A stretch of DNA of 64,000 nt from Sphagnum magellanicum (lineage: Eukaryota > Streptophyta > Sphagnopsida > Sphagnales > Sphagnaceae), in the NCBI GenBank assembly GCA_021904315.1, contig CM038925.1, positions 7,070,501 to 7,134,500 of the forward strand. The letters run 5' to 3'. Position 1 is the first letter of the stretch; each line of letters begins with the position of its first letter. The notes below the pieces were generated by a model. That model did no database searches, had not been told where the DNA came from, and saw only the letters and a program-made list of their open reading frames with translations. Both the position numbers and the translations under genes were made by a program. Below, in pieces: positions 1 through 59,194 of this stretch.

Positions 1-247
1 TCAGGTTTATACCTGCCATGTACCAGGCAAAATCAGCCTTGGACCAAATAGGCACGCATGCTCTTAGCAAAGGGGTATTAGTTCAGGCCAAAAATGGTGC
101 AGCTAACCAGTTTTAGAATACAATTTGCATGCAGCAAATGAGAGGGGTGAACATGCACTCAGGAAGCAGGGCAATCAAAATGGGCTGTTTGCAACCCCAC
201 CAAAAAAAACTTGGAGGCATTCCCACCCACAAGAAAAAAGAGCGAGA

Positions 248-352
248 CCCCTTCACTCCATGACTTGACTTCTCATTGGTTGCATGGAAATTCTATTCCT
301 AAAATTGGCTGCTAGTAATTTTGGCCTTCCTAAGAACACCCTAGCTACCTCT
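248..352 (+). repeat. Dispersed repeat R1, copy 1
   Basis: About 105 bp is shared with 61200-61320 on the same strand, including the blocks TGGAAATTC, ATTCCTAAAATNGGCTGC and CCTAANAACACCCTA. No termini or coding frame are recognisable, so the family is unknown. The two copies lie near opposite ends of the window. Confidence 0.6.
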
Positions 353-758
353 TAATAGAAGCGACAATAGATCCCCTAACAGCAGTGCTGGATGGTATGA
401 AAGTATTATTAAGACTGTACCAAATACCAATAGCTGTGAGGACGAGTCTGGTGTGTTCAAAAGTCGATTCTATTCCAACACTAGTAAAAACTACACTTCC
501 CAATCAATCCCTATTAATCCTTAGTATTTACAAGAGCCAGAAGAAGAAGAGGATTGAGGTTCAACTCCATAATAATCTTCCCAATGGAATCCTATGTATA
601 TTAGTATCATACATAACCACAAATGTGGAATGTCATGTTTCTTAAATGGAGATACTTAATGGAGCATTGTCCTCATTGGCAACATACCTATGGTATTTGA
701 ATGGTGGCTACTGGCTACCCCAACGTTTGGGATTTATATTTAATAGGTAGTCCGGTTA

Positions 759-810
759 GTGGCTCACCCACTATTCTTATGTGGTGGCCCCACCATAATA
801 GTGGGCCACC
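759..810. repeat. Imperfect hairpin around GTGGCTCACCCACTATT
   Basis: Arms at about 759-784 and 786-810 pair through CCACTATT and AATAGTGG with GGCC near the centre. The sequence GGTTAGTGGCTCACC loosely recalls the terminal motif of repeat R4 (GTGAACCAGCACC), so this may be a degraded MITE. Confidence 0.45.
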
Positions 811-1122
811 CAATATTCTCACAACTGCTATCATAAATTTCTTGAACTAGTAGCAAAAAAGAAGGCTTTTTTTGGGTGTAAAAATTGGCCACTTATTTTT
901 GTGGCATCATATTCAGGGCTTTTTTTTTCCCAGTTTTTTTTTTTTCCCGTGAATTTTCCCCCAAAAAAGAAATTTTAGTTGACTTTACAGTAGAAAAAGT
1001 TCCAAAATTTTCCCAATTTTCTAGTCGAAAACAAAACAATGATTCCATTGCACATGCATATTTGTTTTAATTCACCAGCTTTTCACCGCTGATTGGACAA
1101 GGAGCCACAAACCTAAACAAAT

Positions 1123-1349
1123 TACCTTACCCTAAGGGCAGTTTCATCATTAAATAATCCTCAAACTAATGAAATGAAAATTTATGAATATCATCATAAT
1201 TATCATAGGCTACACTCCAAATAATTTTACTACTCATATAACAATATTATAGTAGATGATGGAAATAATAATAATAATAATTTAAAAAGAATTATTTCTT
1301 GAAAAAAAAAATGTTTTGTCAATGTGTAAACTGACCCTGGGCTATGGTA
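1123..1349 (-). mobile_element. MITE family R2, whole copy (227 bp)
   Basis: The ends are inverted repeats: TACCTTACCCTAAGGGCAG on the left and the complement of CTGACCCTGGGCTATGGTA on the right. The interior is AT-rich with a short AAT run. The same element occurs at 37225-37484 and, truncated, at 25416-25625, both in the opposite orientation. Small size, terminal inverted repeats and lack of coding capacity fit a non-autonomous DNA transposon. A TA target duplication is possible but not certain. Confidence 0.75.
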
Positions 1350-4339
1350 TCCCCATTGTCTCCTATCACTTTAAGTGATTTTTATGTACCCTAAGCTTTT
1401 TTTTGCCATTTGGCAATGTTATGTTCTTTCAATTAGATTTGCATTGCCTTCTTCCTCTCTTGCCAAGGAATATGGTACCATGGCTCATTCATTGCTCTTT
1501 TGTTTCATTGTTGCTAGGGTAACTAGGCCTGTGACCAAACACCTAGTGTATGGAGAGCTAAAAATCCTTGGGCGTTGCTTGATTGCCCCTAGAATTCCAA
1601 GACAAATTGTAGAGCCCTCTCAGGCACATGTATAGTTGTGAAGAACAATAAAATTGGTCCAAAAATGGGAATATATGGGGTCTAGAAATAGGGGGTTATT
1701 TTGTTTGAAAAAAAATATGTCCATAAATTTTGTGACATTTGAACATGTAGGTTTCAACCATCTGCAAGCAAACAATCCAATGTTGTAAATTGGACATAAC
1801 TCATACCATTTTGCAAAAAATTCCAAGCATGAAGCCTTAACATTCTTCTTGCATTATTATACACATGTTCATGCACATGGTCCAAATTCAACTCTTACAA
1901 TGGGCTTTGAGATATATGCTCATGGGGAGGTAGGTGTTTGGAAAAACCTTAAAATCTTTAATGATGATGGGTTGGCACTGTTCTCTTCCTCACACTAGTG
2001 TGGCTAGGTTGCTTGCCTGAATTTATGCAAATTCAACTTTTACCAAACGATTCCATGACTCCAAAGTTACAAATATTTTCATTTGTGATTTGTGCATTAT
2101 AAAAGGTAGTGATTAAGATGTGTGCAAAATATTAACACAAAACAACTTAATTTTCATATGTTATGAACTTTTCAAAATATGATGTTTTTCAACATTCAAA
2201 AACCCATAACATAATACCTTAAATTAATATGATGCAAAATTACTTTACATTATTTCCATTGATACAATTCCACCTTGTAACTAAGTCCATGAGTCAATTC
2301 AAAGTCCATCATTGAACCAAATCAGGATCCATTACCCTATTTATTGTAGGTGTTACATTTCCAATGCTTTAACTTCAAAAGTCCATAGCTCTTGGGATTT
2401 CATAAAATTTTCATATCAAATTGTCCCATGTAGGTATTGAGGTTGATAATTTAAAATGAATTCACTTTAACAAATCCTGGTATATAATAAAAAACATACA
2501 CATTATCGCAAAAAAAATCACCTTTGTGACATCAAAATTGCTTCACTCTACCATGCGCCAACCCTTAACTATTCATTAAATGTCATAATGTGGGATTGCA
2601 AATAGTCCATTACATATTCCTTGCCCCTAATTGCAAATAGTACATGGTAGTGTTAGTAGGTTGGTAAAGGACAATTCTTGAATTGTGTTTATCATGTTCC
2701 TATAATTATTGTAGGGGGTTCAAATGTATTTGGTCCAAATCAACTAGCAAACTCATCAACTTCATGCAATCCTTCTTCTATGGGAACATGACTCCTTTGC
2801 ATTTCCACATAATATATTTGTTTAGGTGAAAAAGGTAGTTAAAATTCTTTCCACTTGTAGCAAAACTTGTTCTTGCAATATTCATGAGTGATTTGCTAGC
2901 ATGTTCTTCCCCATCTAGGATTGCCATAGTTTCATAGTCATAGTTATAATATTATTCATATGCCCAAGTTGTTTGTTATTATATATATTTCACCATGCAA
3001 TATAGCTTGTCATTCACTGCCCTAGGGTTTAGATGTCACATTTGTGTAACCTTGAACCCAAATTTGATATTATGTTTGAAAAATATTTGGTCCAATGTTT
3101 TGTCTACCCATCCAACCAATGTGATTTTGTTCAATTATATATGCAATTGTTTTTTTATTTCGTTGTCTCTTTCCTTTTTAACTCATGTTTTGAAAAGTTT
3201 GAAACATGACACATCTAGGGCTATAATATGTGTCATGTGTGGATTGGAGGTGTAATCATGTCTGACCCAAACTGATGTGCTTACTCTATTGCCTTTATAA
3301 TAACATGTAATCCATGCCTATGTAAGATTAAAAGATGTTGATTTGTTTGAGAAATCTAGTATAGATTTTGTAAACAAGTTTATAAATTCTTTGAACTTGA
3401 ACATTGTCAATTGGAGCCTTCTTTTGTAGTGTTGCAATCCAAATCCCTAGCTTTGAAATTGAGTTCAAAATTAAGTATTCATCCTTTGATAATTTTGTAA
3501 TGATCCAAAATCATACAAGCCCATTCATTACAATTATATTGTAGATGAATTATGATGTTCATACATAAAATATATGTTGGCACAAAACATGGGTGCTCTA
3601 TTTTGTATGTAATTTTGAATGATAGTACACCATCACAAGAACATGATTCGATTAAGAGGTAAAGCAAAACCAAATCTTCATTTTTTCCTAAAATCATTTA
3701 ATTTAATTTTTTAAATGTCTTGCTTTTGGGAGCTCCATTGGATGACAATATCTTTTGCACCTTCAAAACTTTATATAAACCTTGTAAAGTTGATGCACAA
3801 TCCTTTAGAAGCTTCATTCACAACTTTGTAGGTTATAATCTCCAAACTCAAATTAGATTATAAATTCAAAACTTATATTGAAAATTTTTTTAGACCCTTG
3901 CCCAATTGTTGTGTTTTCGTGTTGATGTCATTATGAACTAAAAGGGGATCATATATGTGTATATTACCTTTCTACTATAGTGGTTACATTAAGCTATGAG
4001 TTGCCAAATTGGTTGGCTACTTGCAAAATAAGGAAAAAAGATTTAAGTGATTTTTTTTTTCTTCTTTTAGCTAAACATTAGCAAGGTGACCTTAATTTCA
4101 GTAAGTGTATGTGTGACAATGAATAGGTCATAGTTCTTTCATTAGTGAAATTGAATTTTTTTCCTTAGATGCATGAATAACTTGAATTTGTTTGATTTCA
4201 AATTTTGAAGAACATCCATGTGAGGGAATCAAACCCTAACCAATCTAAGCATGTCCATTGTAGCACATGGTGGACCTACACATATAAACAACCTAAATAG
4301 ACAACAAAAAATAAATATTAAATATTAAATAATTTTTGC
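1350..4339. other. AT-rich intergenic DNA
   Basis: I see no sustained frame, tandem array or paired termini here. Open stretches such as 1375-1635 and 2995-3255 are under 90 codons, start arbitrarily and lack recognisable motifs. Part of 3.5-4.3 kb may be the decayed downstream flank of the hAT fossil, but no hAT terminal repeat could be identified. Confidence 0.5.
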
Positions 4340-6109
4340 AACTTACAAGAGTTGAGATTCAGCCTTGACATTGATCATCTTCCATAGAACCAAGAGCCTA
4401 TACAGTTGTAATTTTAGCCAACTTGATGTACTTTGACATCCTTTGCACAATAATTTGGGATGTGGTTTGTTGTTTTCACAAACATGTGAAAGCGTTTAAA
4501 AAGCAAGGTTTAACCATTACACCTTTGGAATTGTTTTTCATTGTCCAAAAATAAAATAAAATGTTGCATATTCAAAGTTGTAAGGTCCAAAACTAATGAA
4601 ATCCACACCTCCTTAGGACCACATCTTTTTAGCATATAATAATCATTTTTAATCAAATTAAAGTGCGATTGAAAGGAAGTTTCAAGGTTAGGGCTCAACT
4701 AGTGTTGGGGATAGAGCATGCCAAATGCATTCATCAATTCATGAAAAGAGAAACGGTTGTCAAGTTCAAAGATTAGTTTTTCAATTGTAGATGCAAATTA
4801 AAATTTCACCTTTGCCATTACCTTGGCATAAATAACTTGAGTTACAAAAAAAACTTTGAAGTGTAGGCATGGTCTTTATACCTTACCCAAATGTGTTGCC
4901 CCCCAATTCAAAAGTTAGTTGATCAATCTTAGTGTTCAAATTTGTGATCCATCTCATGGAGATGGTATCATCAATGTAGTCCACTAACCCATTGAAATGT
5001 TTCAAGGCATTCCCTTCAGCCTAGAAATTTGATCACAATACATCTAAAACAAATCCAATTTACAAAAGGAAACTATGGTAATGAAATCACACATGAAAAC
5101 ATTCTAGAGTTGGGCAAATTTGATGAGAGAATGCATAATAGTCAACATAAGTAGTAGGCAAGCCAAGCCAAACATCACTTAAACATTGGGTAACTAATCC
5201 AAATTGCTTGATACCAAGGCCACAATTGCATAATCAACCACCATTTTTGTCAACAAAGGGCAATATTTTTCAAGCACACACTTCAACAAATTCAACATAT
5301 TGATCCATCAAGCCTTTGTGTTATCAAGTAACTTATGGCCTTTTGTTTCTATGATCTTGGCTAGTTTAATGAACTTTAGGTGACACATTGGAAACTTGTA
5401 GAAAAATGTGTAAAGTGGATTAAAGCAAATCCTCTAGGTGTGTTTCCATAGGCAAACCAAAAATAGTATAAATTGCTAGATTGGTCCTATTTGCCATACA
5501 ATAGATCCCCATCAAAAAATGAATGTGAAAGTCTTGAGTTTGAACTATAAACCCACTTCAAGTACCTTGAAAAATAATCACACCACTTGCACCAAATCAT
5601 AGTAACTTAGAAGGCATTTCAACCTTTATTAAACCTCCAACATTCAATGAAAATTTCACACTATGAGAAATCATGTCACCAAAACCACACTGCCCTACAA
5701 TTAAAGCTCCAAAACAATCAATATACAACTACACTACAATGAAAACATGGAAATATGAACAAATTAATTTTTAAAATGTTATGTCAAAAAATCAAGAAAT
5801 TGTGTTATAATTACAACTTTGTTACAAATGGGACACCTATATGGTGTAATGTACATATCATACATACAGGTGTAATTAACCATGTTTGATTTATTGACAA
5901 ATTGCATTTTCGTTGCATGTGGCAATTACATTACAATTGGTGTAAATGTAGCACCAATCAACCACTACATTGAAATTAATGTATGATTTCAACACATAGG
6001 ATCATGCCACATGTGCACATTTCTAGTGCCCATTACATATCACACTTGCAATTAGTTGTCAACTATGATTCCCATTGATATAACTCATTGTGCAACTATG
6101 TTGCCTTTA

Positions 6110-6880
6110 TATAATCATTATTTTTCCATTATTTTGTGATTGTTGTTCAATTGTTAACAAGTCAGTAATTTTTTCAGTTAATTAATATTTAATCCTGAAT
6201 ATTTAACAATGAATTTTTTCAATAATATATTAATTATTACATATTGATTAATATTTAATAATTAATATGAATTAGTCAATATAATTTGGTCAATTAGTTT
6301 ATTAATTCACTCAAATAATTAATTATTTGATAACTATGTATTTTATCTAAACTCATATTTAGTTTTTAAATATTTAATAATTAATTAAATAATTTAACAA
6401 ATATTAATTAATACATATTTTACTTGATTTTTATGAAACAAATAATTCGACTAAGTAATGAGTTATTATTTTAATTTAATAAATTTAGTTCATATAAGTA
6501 TTTTTACTTTTTAATTTCGATAGCTAATTAAAAATAAAAATAAATGGAAAAAATCTTGAATTCAAATAATGAAATATACGAATTAAATATTTAAAATTAA
6601 TTATCTGAATTAATTCAAGTAACTAGCTTAGATAATTAATTCAAATAATTAAATATCATATAATTGAAATAATTAATTTTGAGAATACATATGATTGATT
6701 ATCTACATTTCATCTAAATACAAATCATTAATTATATTATGACTAATTAACTAATTATTTAAATTATTTAAATTATTATAAAAATTAATTCAAATGATTA
6801 TTTTACATATATAATTTTGAAATAATTATTTATTTCGTTGTACAATTTAAAGATATAAAAATAAACACAAAGAATGTGGG
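6110..6880. repeat. Extremely AT-rich block of TTAATTAATT words
   Basis: Nearly 800 bp is made of permutations of AATTAATTATTTAAA and TTCAAATAATTAA with very few G or C. Such DNA unwinds easily and can act as a matrix-attachment region, but here it may only be the interior of the insertion in the hAT fossil. No coding frame is present. Confidence 0.5.
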
Positions 6881-7135
6881 AAAACCTTTTCTAATTGCAA
6901 CCCAATTTGCAACTAACATGTAATTAAAAGATTTAACCCATAAGTTTTGTTCTTGAATTTCATCTCACAAATTATATAGAAAAGGTGTTTTTTTTGTGTG
7001 CTCACATTAAAATACGTGTGTCAATTTTGAGATGAGCTCAAAAATGTTTAACCCTAAAAACAAAACATTAAAAAAATACATATATTTACATGGTTACTCT
7101 TTAATATACTTACCCTTTCAGCTTCTTACCTATTT

Positions 7136-7275
7136 GCTTACCTAAGTAAGTAAGTAATTAGTCCTACTTTTTTTCCTACCTACCTAAATAGTTAAGTAGG
7201 TATGTATTGTAAGTAGGTAAGTATGTAGTTGAGGTTTGTAGGTATGTTTTACCTACCTACCTATCCATGCCTATG
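7136..7275. repeat. CTAC/GTAG tetranucleotide patch with inversion
   Basis: ACCTAAGTAAGTAAGTAA, CCTACCTACCTAAATAG, AAGTAGGTAAGTATG and TACCTACCTACC occur in alternating orientation. The inverted blocks can fold into hairpins. A much longer array of the same tetranucleotide lies at 14815-15520. Confidence 0.6.
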
Positions 7276-8390
7276 TATTGACTTACCTAACTAATAAAAT
7301 AGATTTTAATTTATTAAAAAATATTAATATGCCATGTGGCAATTTTTGATTGTGCCACATGTGACAATCTAAAACCATTATAAATGAATATTCATAATGG
7401 ATGGTTAATATTAATATTTCAAAAAAATAATGATTTTCACCAAAAAATCCCCATAGTGGTATGTGTTAAATTTTGATGGATCAGTGAAAAATGACATTAA
7501 GATGATGTTACCATGGTAGTTGCAAATTAGTTGCTTTAAAATTACACAATAGTTGTTATTACATAATTGTAATTGAGTTGCTTAAGTTGCATATGTATAT
7601 AGTTTCACATATGGTGAGTTGCATCCATTATAACTCATGCAAATTGTCCAATAGCACTCATGTCCATAAAAACATGTTAAGTTGCAATGAGTTACAAATG
7701 GTCATTGCAACTCAAAAACCTATTTGCAAGGCTAGTTGCAAATCATTCCATTTTCTCATATAATGTTCATTATCATCTTTGTCAAGTTCTACACATTGGA
7801 ACCTTAAGAATGTGTTCAACTAAAAACAAGACATGGATTTTGCACCAATTTTGAAAATGATGGCCATGGATAGAAATCCAATTCTAATTGTCCAATGTGA
7901 CTACCTCAACACAAGTTAATGCCACAAACTTGGTTGCTTGAATAACAAATTTGTTGGTTGCTAAAACTTGGTTGTTAACATGTTTAGTAATCTCCCACCT
8001 AGTTGTGCCACTCCAATGTTTTTTAGGATTTTTTTTCAACTTCAAAAAACTCAATAGGAGTTTGAAATCTTCATAGTTAATCATTGGCAACTAACATCAA
8101 AGCAAATGCAAATTGTATCACCTTCCTTTTGTTGTTTTGTTCACCTCCACTTTGAACTTGTTCCAAAATAGAAGGTCAATTCATGAAGACATATGCCATC
8201 TCATTTATGGCATGAACACATTTGGGATTCACAACTTTCACCCCATTCATTTTTCCTTTTCCCTACATGATTTTCAAATGAATATCGCATGGGGATTAAC
8301 AATTTCTCCTTGCACTCTATTTTGCAACAAACTTTGCATCAAATTGCTATCAAATTCCCATCAACATAAAAAAACTATTTAGCTCGAAGC

Positions 8391-11124
8391 ATTTTCACGA
8401 ATCACACATCCTATGACTTATTCACAACGTTGATTTTATCAAGTTTCTATTTGGTATTGGTAGGAATGGTAATTGGATTTGTAGGGACAAATTCAACATG
8501 TTAGTTACATGAGGGCACAAAGTAGCAAAACTAAGTTCAAGTTATCCACATCCATCTTAATAACAACAAAAGATGTCTAGGTTTAGGGATTTGTGCAAGA
8601 TAGTGTTGAAGCCCCCCTTCTTTGCTAGATTCTAGTTCATGAATCCCAAGGACCATTTCAAGTTTCAAATTTGTTGAACCTCCAAAATAAAAATCTAAAT
8701 GTAAAGTTTGTAGGTTTGCTAATTTTGGGTGCCATCTTGAAGATTTCTATTGGTGGACCACTAACCAAAAAAACCTTCAAAAGTTTAGAAAGTTTAACCT
8801 TAAAATTTTAACTTCTCAATCTTAAATCCTAACCAATTTCAAAACAATTCAATTGCAAAACAAGTAAAAATAGAATGGAGTTATGTAGCTTGGAAGAATT
8901 TAGCTTTCCGTGTTTGTATAATGTTATGTGCAACATGCACCAAGGTCCAAATTCCTAGCAACCAAATTGGATTCATTTGACACAAATTCAATCCTCCTTG
9001 CCTTGGACCCTCACTTTCATCTTGGTTTTCCAAATCATGAGCTCTCCCCTTTGAGCTTTTTTTTTGGGTCTCAACCAATTCATTTTCCCTCCAAAATGGT
9101 GCCCTATAGGTTTACCCTCAATTTGCCACTTTTTGGTCTTGGACCCTCATTTAAAGGTTGTGGGTCCAATTTATGACATAAGCCAATAGGATTGCTTTAC
9201 TTAATTGGACCTTGGGCTTTAGACTCTCACCTAAAGTGATCCTTAACATGTTTTTGTATGGTTAACTTGTCTAACATGTACTTTAATAAAAATTTCCCCA
9301 AATAAAGATCACTATTCTTGTTATTCATGAAAATGTTTTATTTTGAGGTGTGTGTATGTGGAGACATAATGAATATTCAAATAAGAAATCCCATGTCTCT
9401 CCATTGTCTTGGCTTATTATGAATAACATATTATAACTTAGAATCCAAATAAGAATGACAATGTTGGACCCTTGAGAATCCTATGTCATCACAATGAATG
9501 CCTTGCATAACGTTAGGACAAGACTTCTTTCTATAGGGCTTAGCATGTCACCTTATCGCTACCCTTAATTTAGTTGTGGCAATTGATTCAATCCCAAGTT
9601 TAACCACCAACCTTTCCTTTTTTGTAGCAAAGGTTTGGGTTACCCATTTAAATGTTTTTAAGGCTCTTCACCTAAGTCTTCCTTGCCAACGATTGTTCTT
9701 TTGCATTTTCACAAGACTCTATCAAGAAATATAAAAAGCCGTTATGCTTTTTCATTGGACAAGTTGAACCAGGACTTATGACATCACACTCATTTTAATA
9801 TTCCCACAATGGCCTCTAGTAATATCAATTCAAGGTGAATTAATAGGGCATGATTAAATTGAGTCCTAGTACGGGATTGAGAAATTTTGTGCGATAAACA
9901 TTTTTTTGAGCTCAAGCATTCACCCAACAAGTTCATCTTTTTAGCCATCCAATAAAATCGCCTTTCCACCCCAAAAGCACTATCATCAAAGTCTAGCTTT
10001 GGGTTGAATAAGTGTGTGCTCACTTGCAATGCATGTCCTTGCCACCTTTCTTTCGGCCCCACTTTCTAAGGCCAATTTGACCTTTAAAGCTCTTCACTTG
10101 GAATCAAATGGTTTTTTCCCTATACTCATGTAAGATTATGAACTTCATCAAGATGTAAAGATTTCTTCAACTATATACTTCAAATATTAGTTGGTGGTCC
10201 TCTTAATGTGGTATTTGAACATTTACATGATTGTTTTCATCTAAAAGATGTTAATTTGGTTTCCTATACTAATTATTCCAACTTTGTTTTCATATCATCC
10301 ATGTCCTTGGAATGGTTTGTCTCCTAGCCATAACCAAGCCTTTTAGTGCGTTCATCAATCACCATGGGGAAATCATTACATCATTTCAATTTTATGCTAC
10401 ATAATTTGTACATTTCCCTTTCATAAATAAATTGGCATAACAATCAGTTATTGATTTTTTTCATAACTATTAGGTATGTTATTATTATTTTTAAATTGGT
10501 TTTTGGATAAGTTACTAATATCAATATTTTAAAAAAATTGAATGTTAATGAAATTATCAATATTTAAAAAATAATGCATAAGGATAGATTATCAAATAAC
10601 CAATTGATAATTGTATTTATTATCCTATGGGTTACCAACTACTTATATTGAAAAAAATTAATTAAAACTTTAAATCATAAAATTATTAATCATTTTAGGA
10701 TTGATAACTACCTAGATGATAACTAAGTCATATGGATAGGTTTGGGTAGGTCATTATATTTTGAAATTTTAATACAACTTAGTTAGGTTATTAATTGGTT
10801 ATAAAAAAATCAATGACTAACTAATAGGTTATTAATAATTAGGTTGATAATCAAATCAAAACTCAATAATTAACCAACATAGGTTGTGACCAAAAGAGGA
10901 TGCAAAACAATGGTTCATGACACCTTCAATCTCAATCCAACTTGGGTGTTTTAGTAGGTTGATCATTCAATTTAATAACACAAGGTGTGATGTTTTAAGG
11001 GCTATGTGTTATTGGAGCTAACATTATTTAACTTCTTCCTTTTGTCTACATTTTACATGCATCAAAAAAAATAAAATTATAGTCACCATAACCTAGAGGG
11101 AGAGGTCATTATCATCCCCTTGGT
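8391..11124. other. AT-rich DNA with a weak coding-like patch
   Basis: Most of this stretch shows no structure. On the minus strand, about 10380-9790, reading gives protein-like text (MVIDERTKRLGYG, DMDDMKTKLE, then an open stretch 10062-9790 with LDFDDSAFGVERRFYWM) broken by stops. I do not recognise the family. At 8928-9176 the phrase CTTGGACCCTCA recurs with spacing. Between 10440 and 10870 the DNA is AT-rich with many short GGTTATNAA words. Confidence 0.3.
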
Positions 11125-14150: not shown

Positions 14151-14641
14151 CTTTTCATGTGGTTTGAAAATATTTACACATTTTTCCCTGTTCCACATTT
14201 TAAACATCCAAAAGTTGGGTTGAAATTGCCTTCTCAAAGGATGGATTCCTAACCCTTACAAACATAGTCAGTGCTAATCCAACCTATGTAAACATTCTAT
14301 CCCAAACATCATGTGCATGGAGTTTTGCAGGTTTATAAATAGCTTAAACAAATGAATGGAATTATGAAAATCATCATTAGGTAAATCAATTCCTCCTCCT
14401 TTCGATAGAAGTTTTCAATTGTTTGCATGAATAAGGTGACAATTTCTTACAAGTTTGTGCCAACATTGTATGAGGAATGAAAGGTCCAAAAGGTCCCCCC
14501 TTTTCAATCCTAATCACTTTATTTAGAAAAAAGGTTTTCAATTCTATTCCAAAAGATGCAGGCTTCTATTGCTAAAAGTTGAGCAATAGCCATGGGACTA
14601 GTTCCATATCGAGTTCCACCACTTGTAGACCCCTACCCAAT

Positions 14642-26116: not shown

Positions 26117-26532
26117 GCTATGGAATAGCAAAAAGATCATGCATCACTGGTCATAACCCATGGTGTGGAATATTCCCATAACCAGGGTCAGGAGAGCTTG
26201 GTTATGGGAATATTCCTATATCCATGGGTAAAAGTCCAGAGCTTCTGGTGAATACTCTTTGTGACCGGGTCCAGGACCCTTGGTTGCAAAGAATATTCCC
26301 CCAAAAGCCTTGAATATAGAAACGACTCCTATTGTCTTTGGATCCTAGCTACGTCATGGGAATATTTCACTCTCAGGGTTCAGGTAACCCAAGCTTTTGA
26401 GAATATTCTTCATGACCAAGGGTATGAATATTCAGGATATTCTCAAAAGTCTAGGCTATCTGACCCTGTTATTGCAATATTTCCATGACTAGAGTACAAA
26501 GACTGGTGCATGGTCTTTTTGCTATTCCATAC
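26117..26532. mobile_element. Foldback element (416 bp) with long inverted arms and internal hairpins
   Basis: The left arm GCTATGGAATAGCAAAAAGA and the complement of TCTTTTTGCTATTCCATACC pair nearly perfectly. Pairing continues at lower identity for about 90 bp (CATGCA, GGTCAT/AGTCAT, GGAATATT, CAGGGTCAG). CCT stands outside both ends (26114-26116 and 26533-26535), a possible 3-bp duplication. The interior holds further hairpins, for example GGAATATTCCCATAACC against GGTTATGGGAATATTCC (26168-26218) and repeated GAATATTC words. The 75-codon open stretch at 26261 is not credible. It fits a non-autonomous foldback MITE. Confidence 0.75.
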
Positions 26533-37484: not shown

Positions 37485-37932
37485 TAAACACACCATAGAT
37501 TTGGAAAATGTACAAAGGAGTAAGAAAAAGGAAGATGTCAACTTAGTTCAAACGAAGTGTCAAACTTTCTCCATGTCAAAACTCGATTGCTTGCAATAGG
37601 TGATTGTGGTGATGGGAGGTGTGTCCTAAAGGGGTGGAAGTTGAGAAATAGTTAAGCCTATGACTATCACCTAACTTAAGATGGAGGATGTTTGTATCCT
37701 TTGTAATGTGATTGAAACTTTTTGATGAAAAAAAGGAATCAAGATAGAAATATGAAAGCCTTATAGCCATTTCAAGCTTCAAATGACATTGTTTATGAAA
37801 ACTCATAACTCATGACTTATGACCAATTTAGTTGTTTGAAATTCCCACAATAGTTTGTTATGAAATTTAGGACAAACTCAAGATCAATAGCACAAAAATG
37901 TTGACTTCGACAAGCACATCAAAAGACCTTAA

Positions 37933-54790: not shown

Positions 54791-55650
54791 GAAAAGGCAC
54801 TATGTTAATTGCATTTTCATATAGATTAATGTAGCTTTTGTGAACACGTTCCTTATTTTTCATATTTTAGAATGGAAATTTTCTAAATTTAGTAATGTGA
54901 ACACATTAAAGGGTCAATTGATTTTTCTTTCCAAACCCAAATTTTGCATTTCTTTGAATTTGGTAACAAAATTCACTAAAAAATCACATAGCTCTAAAAA
55001 TTATGAAATAAAATCTATTAAATTTAACTTGTTGAGGCTTTCCAAATTCCAAGAAAATTTTCAATTTCAAATTTATTTAATTTTCATTGAAAAATTGTTC
55101 AATAATCAGTAACTTCCACACCATAGTTCCAAACAATCTCAAACAAAGTTGATGCATCCTTATTCATTGGAAGATTTTTGAAAATACGAAGAGCTTAACC
55201 TAAAGCACCATGGTTTGAAAGATCTTAACATGACAAAACAAAACGAACTACCTTGTTTCATAGATAAATGCAAGTAGATTGGTGAAAGGAATGACATAGT
55301 TAAGTAATTATGGAATGTTGTCATAATTGTCACATGTATGACCTTATATAATAATCAAGTTGATGACCATTATTGGACCCTATACATGTTTTATTGAAAC
55401 CAATTTCAATTATCATTGTTAAATTATTTTTTTGGGTAATAGCCTTTCAAATTAGTCTAAATCCTCCCAATCTTTCATAAGCTTACGTTTTTCATTGCAT
55501 TTATTATCAATCCATTGAGGAAATTTGATATCCACTCTTTATGGCACACCTTACATTTTAAAATAGATGATGTGATGTGTAACACATTTTTGCTTTTAGT
55601 GTTCATAAAAAAAATTGCCACAATGTTCACAAACAATTGCAAAACACTTC
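54791..55650. other. AT-rich DNA, no feature seen
   Basis: The 90-codon plus-strand stretch 54840-55112 is Lys/Phe/Asn-rich and looks like random AT-rich DNA. Confidence 0.35.
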
Positions 55651-55655
55651 TTTCC

Positions 55656-55920
55656 TCAACCCTTTAGGCCTTTCATCGGTGTTTCAACATCGTGGTTTCC
55701 AAATATGATGTTCAAACCTTCATGAATGTCAATGAAGATTAATCCCACACAAATGAAACTTGTTGCCCACTCAACTTCATTCAAAGGTGTAACATCATAT
55801 GCAAAGGGAAAAAATTGCCATGAATGACACATTAGCAACCAATTCTTCCCATTACCAATAGGATCTTTGGTTGCTCACATAAGAAAACTAATGATTTTGA
55901 CATGTTTGTGCCAAAAAGGC
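55656..55920 (-). pseudogene. Unidentified coding fossil A
   Basis: The minus strand reads ATKDPIGNGKNWLLMCHSWQ, then FFPFAYDVTPLNEVEWATSF and IFIDIHEGLNIIFGNHDVE, ending near 55656. Balanced residue use (several Trp, Asp, Glu, Gly) is unlike the Lys/Asn/Phe text of random frames here, so it was probably once coding. It is broken and too short to be a gene. Family not recognised; a mobile-element origin is likely given the surroundings. Confidence 0.4.
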
Positions 55921-55954
55921 ATGGGACATCAAAAGTAAAAAGGTCCCCATTTCA

Positions 55955-56031
55955 ATCATTGATCATTGTTTTCAAACATTAAATCTTCATTGCATTTGAA
56001 GATTTAGTGTTTGAAAACAATGATCAATGAT
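55955..56031. repeat. Nearly perfect 35-bp hairpin with 7-nt loop
   Basis: Arm 1 (55955-55989) starts ATCATTGATCATTG and ends TAAATCTTCA. Arm 2 (55997-56031) starts TGAAGATTTA and ends CAATGATCAATGAT. The arms match at 34 of 35 positions, and the one difference becomes a G-U pair in RNA. The loop is TTGCATT. A transcript would fold like a short microRNA precursor; as DNA it is a foldback or template-switch product. Confidence 0.9.
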
Positions 56032-56039
56032 AATTCAAG

Positions 56040-58680
56040 CAACCATAGTTGGGGTTGGCCACCTTCCAACTTTCACCCATCACACACCCTCCTTCCATTC
56101 TCACTTGTGATTTTCTATTCACCTTTAATAGTCAATTGATATTGTTAGTGGGCAGGTGGCATTGCAACTAGGGCTTTAACATATAGTTGGGCAAAATTTA
56201 ACAAGATTATCATTTTATTTCATTTTCCTTTCATGTTATCTTTGAATTTATTGCCATAAAGTTTGGCAGGTGTTGATAGAAAAAAAACAGAGATGAATAG
56301 CTTTCCCAAGAGGTTAGAACAAATAACATTCACAATTAATTACTACAATATTATGCATCAAAGTGTAGGATGAAATGGAGTGGGATGTGATTGTTTTTGG
56401 AATGAATACTTAATGGATGAGAAAAACATACCATGTAGCCAAAAATAAAAAGCAACAAGGGAGTGGGTAGTTGATGGAATTTTTTCCTTTTTAGTGTATG
56501 TGTCTATTTATCTTTGTTTGATATAGGTTATTAATGACAAAAGGATTTGTGGTGTTGTGTTGTTTTGTGTGAATAAATTTCAAGACGGTAAAGGAACTAG
56601 TTTCTTGTTTTGGTGTTCTTAATGGTCTGTTGGCAATTGCAAATTTTGTGTGAAATGATGGTGGTGGAATTTGAAGAGAAGGTGCATGAAAGAGGGGATA
56701 AAAGACTTAGTGTTTGAAAAACTAAATACCTTTTTTTCTTTGAAGTTAAATATTTAACAATGTTGTTGCAATAGATGTTGGACATGTGTGTGTTGATTAG
56801 ACTATCTAGATGAATGCTCACAATAAAAAAGAAACTATATTTTTTCAACTTTTTCCCCTTTCCATTGTGCATTGGAGTTGGTAAATCAGACATTTGTAAA
56901 ACAAGAAGACATGAACAAATGTGTAAGTTTGGTGGAATTGATGAAGATCCATAGGGGACAAAAAGGATCAGGCTTGTCTAAATAACATGTCATTGAAGGC
57001 TTAGTGGCAAATGTGAGTGGGAAATTCAAAGCTTATTCTTCAAGAAGATAGAAACATACATTGGGAATTGCAAGAGCATTGTATGGCTCAAATTTGGGGA
57101 AGTAAAAGAACACATTGAGAATATGCATGGTTAGAACCTTGCTATCAAATTTTCTTGAATAAATTGTTTGGGTTGAGATGGGTTGAAAAAAAGAGCATTG
57201 TTCACAGTATTGTCAAATGAGACAACAATAACTTGAAAAAAATGATCTGAAATGATACGATCCACCAGACCTACAAAATTTAACATGTTGCTTTGATAGT
57301 TTAGAACTTATGATTAAGTATAGGATGTTATGTTGGTTACTATCTTTAAATTTGGGGCAACACTAAAGTATGGTGTTGGGTGTTGCTTTATGATGTTGTT
57401 TGGTGGACTATATGGAATTATAGAGTTGTTGGTAGTCTAAGTGTTCTTAGGGGAGCTAGTCATGAATTATCATTGAATAAAACATAGCCCCATTTGTTGT
57501 TACAAAAGGTTTTTCCACAACAAGCCCAATATTGTACATGTGCTAGGACTCCAACCCCTAAGGCTTGAAGTCAAGATATTCACCAAATATATGGCACAAA
57601 AAGATAAAATATTTTAGCTTTGAAGCAATAGTTTTTCAACGGGATTTTTTTTAACACAATGAATTTCTTTAATTTGAAAAAAAAGATTTTTGGGGTAATT
57701 TTGTGCTAGCATTTGAAATAAATTCCATAAAAATTGCTAGAATTTTATATCACAATGTATTGTAGTAGGTAACCAACAACATAGAAGCATGTTTAAATTT
57801 TGTAATCTCTTAATTCACTAATAAAAAACTGGCTAAACTTCTTTAAAATGATCACCACTTTAATTCCATAAAAAAATTTGTAGTTAATTAGTGTGCAAAC
57901 AAGATCATACCCTACAATTAGATCACCATACCTTATTTGTTACCCTAGTTTAATAGCAACTTCAATAGGTCTCTGCCAAATAATTATTCAATTTTGAAGA
58001 TTCCATTTCCACAAAATATAATATTTCAAAATATTGCCCTTCACAAATTTCTTTTTGAAAATTTCAGCACATTTAAAAATAATATTATTTTTGTTGAACC
58101 TATTATTGAACTATAATATGTGGATTAACTAACTATAAAGAACATGCATGCTACTATGAATAATGGAAAGAATGTACAAGTTACTATGAATATAATGATG
58201 CATGATAATAATTAGCGCACTTGAACTAGTTAATACACATAATCATTCCTTTTGAGAATTGAAATAACCTCTTTTCATTCAATGTAAATAATGATTATGG
58301 AATCCTCATCCAAGCAGGAAAGGGTTATGAAATCATTAGCCCAATGGGAGGCTAAGGTGGTACTTTGTGCTAATTACCATGTCACTAATTAAACAAAGGT
58401 TGAAGGTTATAAGCTTATGGGTTGTAATTTTATGACATGACAACCAATCAGAATCTCAATAATTTCATGAGGTATGATCGTAAAGACTATCTTTGAAAAA
58501 GGCAACTATAGTTATTGATATACATGCAAAGTTGATATGAACATATGCACATTTATTTGAATGAAAGGAGGTGAAAAAAAGAAAAAGGAACAACAAAAAG
58601 TGGAGAGGAAGGACATGGTATGGAATTAATTATTTATGACAAAATCTTAGAATGACCTAGAGGTAACCTATAAGTCTTTC
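56040..58680. other. AT-rich DNA, no feature seen
   Basis: No supported feature. The 98-codon minus-strand stretch 56893-56597 is not motif-bearing. Confidence 0.4.
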
Positions 58681-58681
58681 T

Positions 58682-59009
58682 TTAGCTATGTACTTGATAT
58701 AAAATATCCAACATCATATTGGGTAAGGGGTTTCCAAAATGTGGACCTCCAAAGGTAGTAAACTCCACTTTAATTGCTCGACTTAGAATACACATACAAT
58801 TCTTGAAATGTAAATGAAATCTTCGTCTGAAGAAGGCGGTTAGTATTGAAGGTCTTTCCAAACCTTTTGTCCCCATGTGCTCTTGCTTTAACATGTGAAA
58901 AATCGTTAGCTTGTTTGTACAAACAACCAATTGCTACTACTAGTAAAGGGAGGAATAATTTGGTTTTTTGAGTGTCAATATCATTAACTTTGTTCCTTTT
59001 TTTGGGCAA
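58682..59009 (-). pseudogene. Unidentified coding fossil B
   Basis: Two overlapping minus-strand frames carry protein-like text: LPLLVVAIGCLYKQANDFSH (59009 onward) and GLERPSILTAFFRRRFHLH then VEFTTFGGPHFGNPLPNMML (toward 58682). The switch of frame between them shows it is broken. Family not recognised. Confidence 0.35.
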
Positions 59010-59194
59010 TCTTTGAAGCTATGAAACCATGTGTAAAAGTTACTCAAAACAAAAGATATGCATGAATGGGATCAACAGTGATGATGTCCATAAAAGTGTG
59101 GACCCAAATACAATGTCAATGTGTTGTTTGGAGGCCAAAGATGTTTAGGTGGGAAAAACATATAGTTGCTTTTAGACCATATGGAAATTATTTT

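Follow-up and report, generated by a model that had tools for sequence, protein, structure and literature searches.

The 64,000-nt window, the whole stretch of DNA analysed here, carries a real, single-copy hairpin with a nearly perfect 35-bp stem, and this is most likely the scar of a template switch within an old dispersed repeat. The hairpin is probably recent, and we give a probability of roughly 0.7 to its origin as a recent template-switch mutation, or fold-back copying, inside one copy of that repeat. The mechanism is already known, and the locus serves as an instructive example with no evidence for function. What is new here is the position of the hairpin inside an old dispersed-repeat copy, with family homology that, as aligned, reaches both of its edges.

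Structure and copy number of the hairpin

The two arms of the hairpin are complementary at 34 of 35 positions (97%) and are separated by a short loop (Table 1). Folded as RNA, the + strand forms all 35 pairs, consisting of 34 Watson-Crick pairs and one G-U pair, with a minimum free energy (MFE) of -49.1 kcal/mol and a z-score of -12.2; none of 200 shuffles is equally stable. On the - strand the odd pair is broken, and the MFE is -44.4. Given the local composition and a loop of at most 30 nt, such a hairpin is expected by chance about 2e-11 times per 64 kb, and a chance origin is excluded. The geometry given in the original prediction, namely the coordinates, the 34/35 match, the 7-nt loop and the single exception that becomes a G-U pair on the + strand, is thus exact. 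Its description of the surroundings as decayed DNA also holds, with old repeat sequence present on both flanks.

In the genome searched (438,994,042 bases in 31 contigs), the 77-nt hairpin finds no further copy but itself at E-values up to 10, and a search with its 201-nt context likewise returns only the locus itself. A 25-mer search allowing up to three mismatches recovers both arms and one site with three mismatches, compared with one site for the reversed-pattern control.

Table 1 Features of the hairpin, its host repeat and the adjoining repeats (window coordinates)
Feature	Position	Strand	Remarks
Hairpin left arm	55955..55989	+	35 nt; more probably retained ancestral repeat sequence (copy source)
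Hairpin loop	55990..55996	+	7 nt
Hairpin right arm	55997..56031	+	more probably new reverse-complement copy, family sequence overwritten
Host repeat, upstream part	55844..55954	+	85/109 aligned bases equal to family consensus
Host repeat, downstream part	56032..56121	+	60/84 aligned bases equal to family consensus
Host repeat copy wA, without hairpin	14316..14631	+	
Host repeat copy wC, without hairpin	58803..59035	-	
Host repeat copy wD, without hairpin	37614..37808	-	located via wA
High-copy dispersed repeat adjoining hairpin	54839..55270		outside hairpin
Low-copy old repeat adjoining hairpin	56358..57476		three paralogues, 68-71%; outside hairpin

The hairpin replaces sequence in one copy of an old dispersed repeat

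When the genome was searched with 55290-56357, many matches to the first 142 bases of the query were returned, together with a match on contig C11 that spans 55834-55956 and stops of its own accord at the hairpin's left edge. This C11 match (L066) belongs to an old dispersed repeat with further copies, three of which lie inside the window. The family profile was built from ten aligned copies, namely the three in the window, L058, L048, L066 and L067-L070, with the hairpin copy excluded; of the eight genome copies listed for the host stretch, from 40 of 96 candidates scored, five were read. With queries cut at the edges of the hairpin, alignment to the family reaches 55954 on the upstream side and resumes at 56032. 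The query for the downstream flank attains 50.5 bits, a score that none of 200 shuffles reaches (mean 20.1, maximum 32.0).

Between these two edges the family comprises 68 profile columns and the hairpin copy 77 nt. At the matching place, the ten other copies that were read hold 51-69 nt and no such hairpin in any case, and together with their flanks they fold at -2.6 to -21.7 kcal/mol, versus -49.1 for the hairpin. Since the family aligns to both edges and ten copies are without the hairpin, the hairpin formed at this site and within this copy, taking the place of family sequence. This replacement of family sequence is independent of which arm is taken to be the older one. The original prediction had named a template-switch product among its candidate explanations, and the lack of the hairpin in 10 of 10 other copies, together with the in-place replacement of the family stretch, bears this out. 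It had further suggested that the hairpin is either very recent or kept by selection; the same ten copies favour the first part, while selection is left without support, with no Rfam match at the gathering score.

One of the 35 sites differs between the arms (95% range 0.07 to 16%); compared with the family consensus, the upstream flank differs at 24 of 109 sites and the downstream flank at 24 of 84 (22-29%). Because the arms differ far less than the flanks, the hairpin is probably younger than the repeat copy in which it sits, with the range for the arms being wide.

Family signal in the two arms

The arms were compared with the family profile in ten anchored tests, each against 1000 dinucleotide shuffles and 1000 window segments and uncorrected for their number. 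With the anchor at the upstream edge, the left arm reaches 9.5 bits, a value that 20 of the shuffles and none of the segments match, and its outer 25 nt score 7.7 bits (8 shuffles and 9 segments as good). The left arm and loop together reach 12.0 bits (7 and 0), a value that is the same when eight more bases are included (3 and 1). For the right arm, anchored at the downstream edge, the score is -3.3 bits, with 358 shuffles and 479 segments as good. Its outer 25 nt give 1.5 bits and a weak family signal (39 and 138), and its outer 20 nt give 0.5 bits (115 and 193). The loop stretch 55980-56004 on its own shows no family signal in this test (3.9; 572 and 449). Control stretches of 35 nt just outside the two edges score 20.7 (0 shuffles, 1 segment) and 21.3 (0 and 0).

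Scores from the profile HMM are closer for the two arms. The intact copy scores 61.7 bits, falling to 54.0 without the left arm and to 56.4 without the right arm, and reaching 61.4 if the right arm is removed with its first four bases left in place. Added to the upstream flank, the left arm contributes 3.7 bits (37.1 to 40.8), a gain equalled by 10 of 200 shuffled left arms; adding the right arm to the downstream flank raises the score by 3.2 bits (10.2 to 13.4), a gain equalled by 39 of 200 shuffled right arms. In pairwise BLAST with two other copies, the alignment extends across the left arm, as far as 55987 in one case and 55989 in the other. When family members are left out and scored in turn, the left part of the hairpin copy, at 9.4 bits, lies below all ten (14.9 to 46.0) and is therefore more diverged than the flanks predict, and the right part, at 0.4 bits, lies inside their range (-2.8 to 29.8). 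In a comparison with L066 on its own, both arms fall short of significance; the right arm ranks ahead of the left, 64 and 91 of 500 shuffles matching the right and 329 and 471 the left. An old left arm and a new right arm, favoured by the anchored profile tests but opposed by the nearly equal HMM gains, the left-out members and the L066 comparison, are moderately supported, and we treat this assignment as the more probable one.

Proposed template switch

We propose that a single fold-back event in the course of replication or repair formed the hairpin. After synthesis of the present left arm and loop, the nascent strand would have folded back on a short inverted repeat, TTCA/TGAA, beside the loop, a priming site suggested by the alignment. 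From there it would have used its own left arm as template for about 30-35 nt before returning to the normal template near a CAATGAT-like stretch, which reads CCATGAT in the family and marks the putative return site; the slight resemblance of the outer right arm to the family (39/1000) would agree with a return here. Some 25 nt of the family stretch would thereby have been overwritten by a reverse-complement copy, now the right arm, producing the near-perfect stem in one step, and one transition would have followed since. We infer that the resulting hairpin is neutral.

According to PMC8794818, template switching in replication can create perfect stems in one event, microRNA loci included. The template-switch hairpins described there by Monttinen and Loytynoja (2022) resemble the present one in that a single event places a reverse-complement copy beside its source, and in having a long near-perfect stem with a short loop, whose mismatches stem from later point mutations. 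Unlike those cases, the outgroup here consists of paralogous repeat copies from one genome, with no species tree, and the ancestor is only approximated; the present locus is furthermore repeat DNA with no known RNA gene. If the proposal is right, the locus would offer a plant example of a long near-perfect stem that arose from one mutation, and decayed paralogous repeats would provide the outgroup. The same strategy could be extended genome-wide, as hairpins that lie in dispersed repeats can be polarised by the other copies, and would then give an estimate of how often raw material for foldback RNA genes appears. A single locus known from its sequence alone carries little functional weight.

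Alternative explanations

A young MIRNA or siRNA hairpin, whose stem is transcribed and diced into 21-24-nt RNAs, concerns present use and is compatible with a template-switch origin. The original prediction had raised it; the claim found no support, as the window is without any Rfam match at the gathering score and the 35-bp stem is marginal, and we consider it unlikely. Since young MIRNAs need not match known families, the missing Rfam match lowers the MIRNA claim only a little. The + strand RNA stem is indeed perfect at the MFE given above, its odd pair being G-U, and sub-threshold Rfam matches include many miRNA families, the best being mir-3145 with 47.5 bits and an E-value of 1.3e-8 (gathering score 98). 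In total, 34 sub-threshold matches were obtained at E-values up to 10 for the 601 bases around the hairpin, many of them miRNA families lying over the hairpin itself; we presume these to be what any long stem would give. Two points on processing would weigh against a MIRNA. According to PMC9893293, the first cut falls 15-17 nt from the stem base and the second 21 nt further, and the 35-bp stem is short for such a basal segment plus a 21-nt duplex, being marginal against the 36-38 bp that this rule gives; PMC1790633, in turn, reports that DCL1 has limited activity on perfectly paired dsRNA. The latter source also notes that young plant MIRNAs can arise by inverted duplication, and the loci it describes share with ours a local inverted duplication and a foldback with near-perfect arms. 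They differ from the present case, in which no parental protein-coding gene was found and the stem measures only 35 bp. The arms lie in repeat DNA, where a gene-like parental sequence was not found, and five pieces of the arms were not found in the main texts of the papers searched. Two 21-mers from the right arm have 11 and 9 genome sites within two mismatches besides the arms, and their reversed-pattern controls have 2 and 5. That the locus is a MIRNA-like gene at birth in a moss, where one template switch in a dead repeat gave a transcribed foldback that already yields small RNAs, seems very improbable to us; were it true, plant foldbacks could arise without duplication of a target gene.

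It is similarly doubtful that the hairpin is older and owes its near-perfect state to selection or to recurrent correction between the arms. According to PMC8794818, stems can be maintained by template switching as well, and both the excess divergence of the left arm and the small family gain from either arm would fit repeated events on a weak pre-existing stem. Yet none of the ten other copies holds such a hairpin, the genome contains no second copy of the locus, and at the gathering score it matches no Rfam family. MITEs and fold-back elements are short palindromic units in repeat DNA, and the symmetrical 77-nt unit with its sharp edges shares this appearance. Insertion of such a small transposable element into the repeat is nonetheless quite unlikely: unlike these elements, the hairpin occurs once in the genome and replaces the family stretch instead of merely interrupting it (68 columns versus 77 nt), and some family similarity is kept in the left arm. 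By eye, no exact target-site duplication was seen beside the edges; TTCA occurs in both flanks, a few bases off. Least probable is an assembly artefact, for instance a fold-back read joined into the contig, an explanation that the data do not require. The altered stretch is short, internal and normally flanked, and one site already distinguishes the two arms. According to PMC9946827, the published assembly of S. divinum, which we assume to be the present genome, is moreover based on long reads at ~70x.

Neighbouring repeats and other loci

The upstream dispersed repeat (54839-55270) occurs at 37 other places with 71-79% identity, among 40 of 980 candidates scored. The stretch 55290-55431 next to it has many genome matches too and may belong to the same repeat. 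Downstream, the repeat at 56358-57476 is old and about 1.1 kb long, with its paralogues on contigs C15, C2 and C4. Within it, 56702-56720 matches the right arm at 18 of 19 positions and was considered as the source of the arm, but was rejected, since all three paralogues have a different sequence at this point. A 14-nt inverted pair, 56024-56037 and 57463-57476, was likewise rejected as the termini of one element: in the three paralogues of the downstream repeat, no shared sequence was detected upstream of ~56358. On C11, a different and numerous repeat family follows the host-repeat copy at bases 315-561 of the reverse complement of L066, with 71-80% identity.

A Pfam search of ten open frames, out of 107 of at least 70 aa in the window, returned only a sub-threshold match to YqzL (13.8 versus 27 bits). 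Elsewhere in the genome, locus L036 (contig C20, ~3.3 Mb) contains an unbroken 475-codon rbcL frame at 1042-2469, and rbcL copies with stops are present on C4, C7, C11 and C20. These copies are plastid DNA insertions, probably of different ages. The closest solved structure to the L036 copy is 9chz, which we take to be a hornwort Rubisco.

Comparison with other inverted repeats

The original prediction had set the hairpin apart from other inverted repeats in the window, said to pair at 70-90% over long arms. This is accurate for long arms, as the other inverted repeats with arms of at least 30 nt are 71-87% complementary among the 25 longest of 48 pairs; it does not extend to shorter arms, where near-perfect pairs exist. 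A 28-nt pair at 26119/26504, also among the 25 longest of 48, is 93% complementary, and the GC-richer part at 26167-26216 contains an 18/18 inverted repeat with a 14-nt loop, found in the scan with loops of at most 30 nt. With the same loop limit, the window has six non-simple inverted repeats scoring at least 14, versus a total of one in ten whole-window shuffles. A 100-kb sample, made up of ten hand-picked 10-kb stretches, one per contig, out of 100 random positions on 16 contigs, has one (three including simple repeats), versus none in ten shuffles.

Across the window, this sample and 126.7 kb of other loci, many of them chosen as repeats, the hairpin is the sole case with arms of at least 30 nt besides one (AT)n run. 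For hairpins with arms of at least 25 nt and 95% identity inside dispersed repeats, the density of 1 per ~0.29 Mb seen here would amount to ~1,500 per genome (95% range 38 to 8,400), a rough upper guide, as the sample contains the prompting locus and is partly repeat-biased. A second non-simple near-perfect hairpin, with 27 of 29 positions complementary and an 8-nt loop, is present at L006:755-820 on contig C4, in a locus picked as a paralogue of 56358-57476. The base of this hairpin and the hairpin of the window have in common a short AAAACAATG(A/T)TCAAT-like stretch, perhaps by chance.
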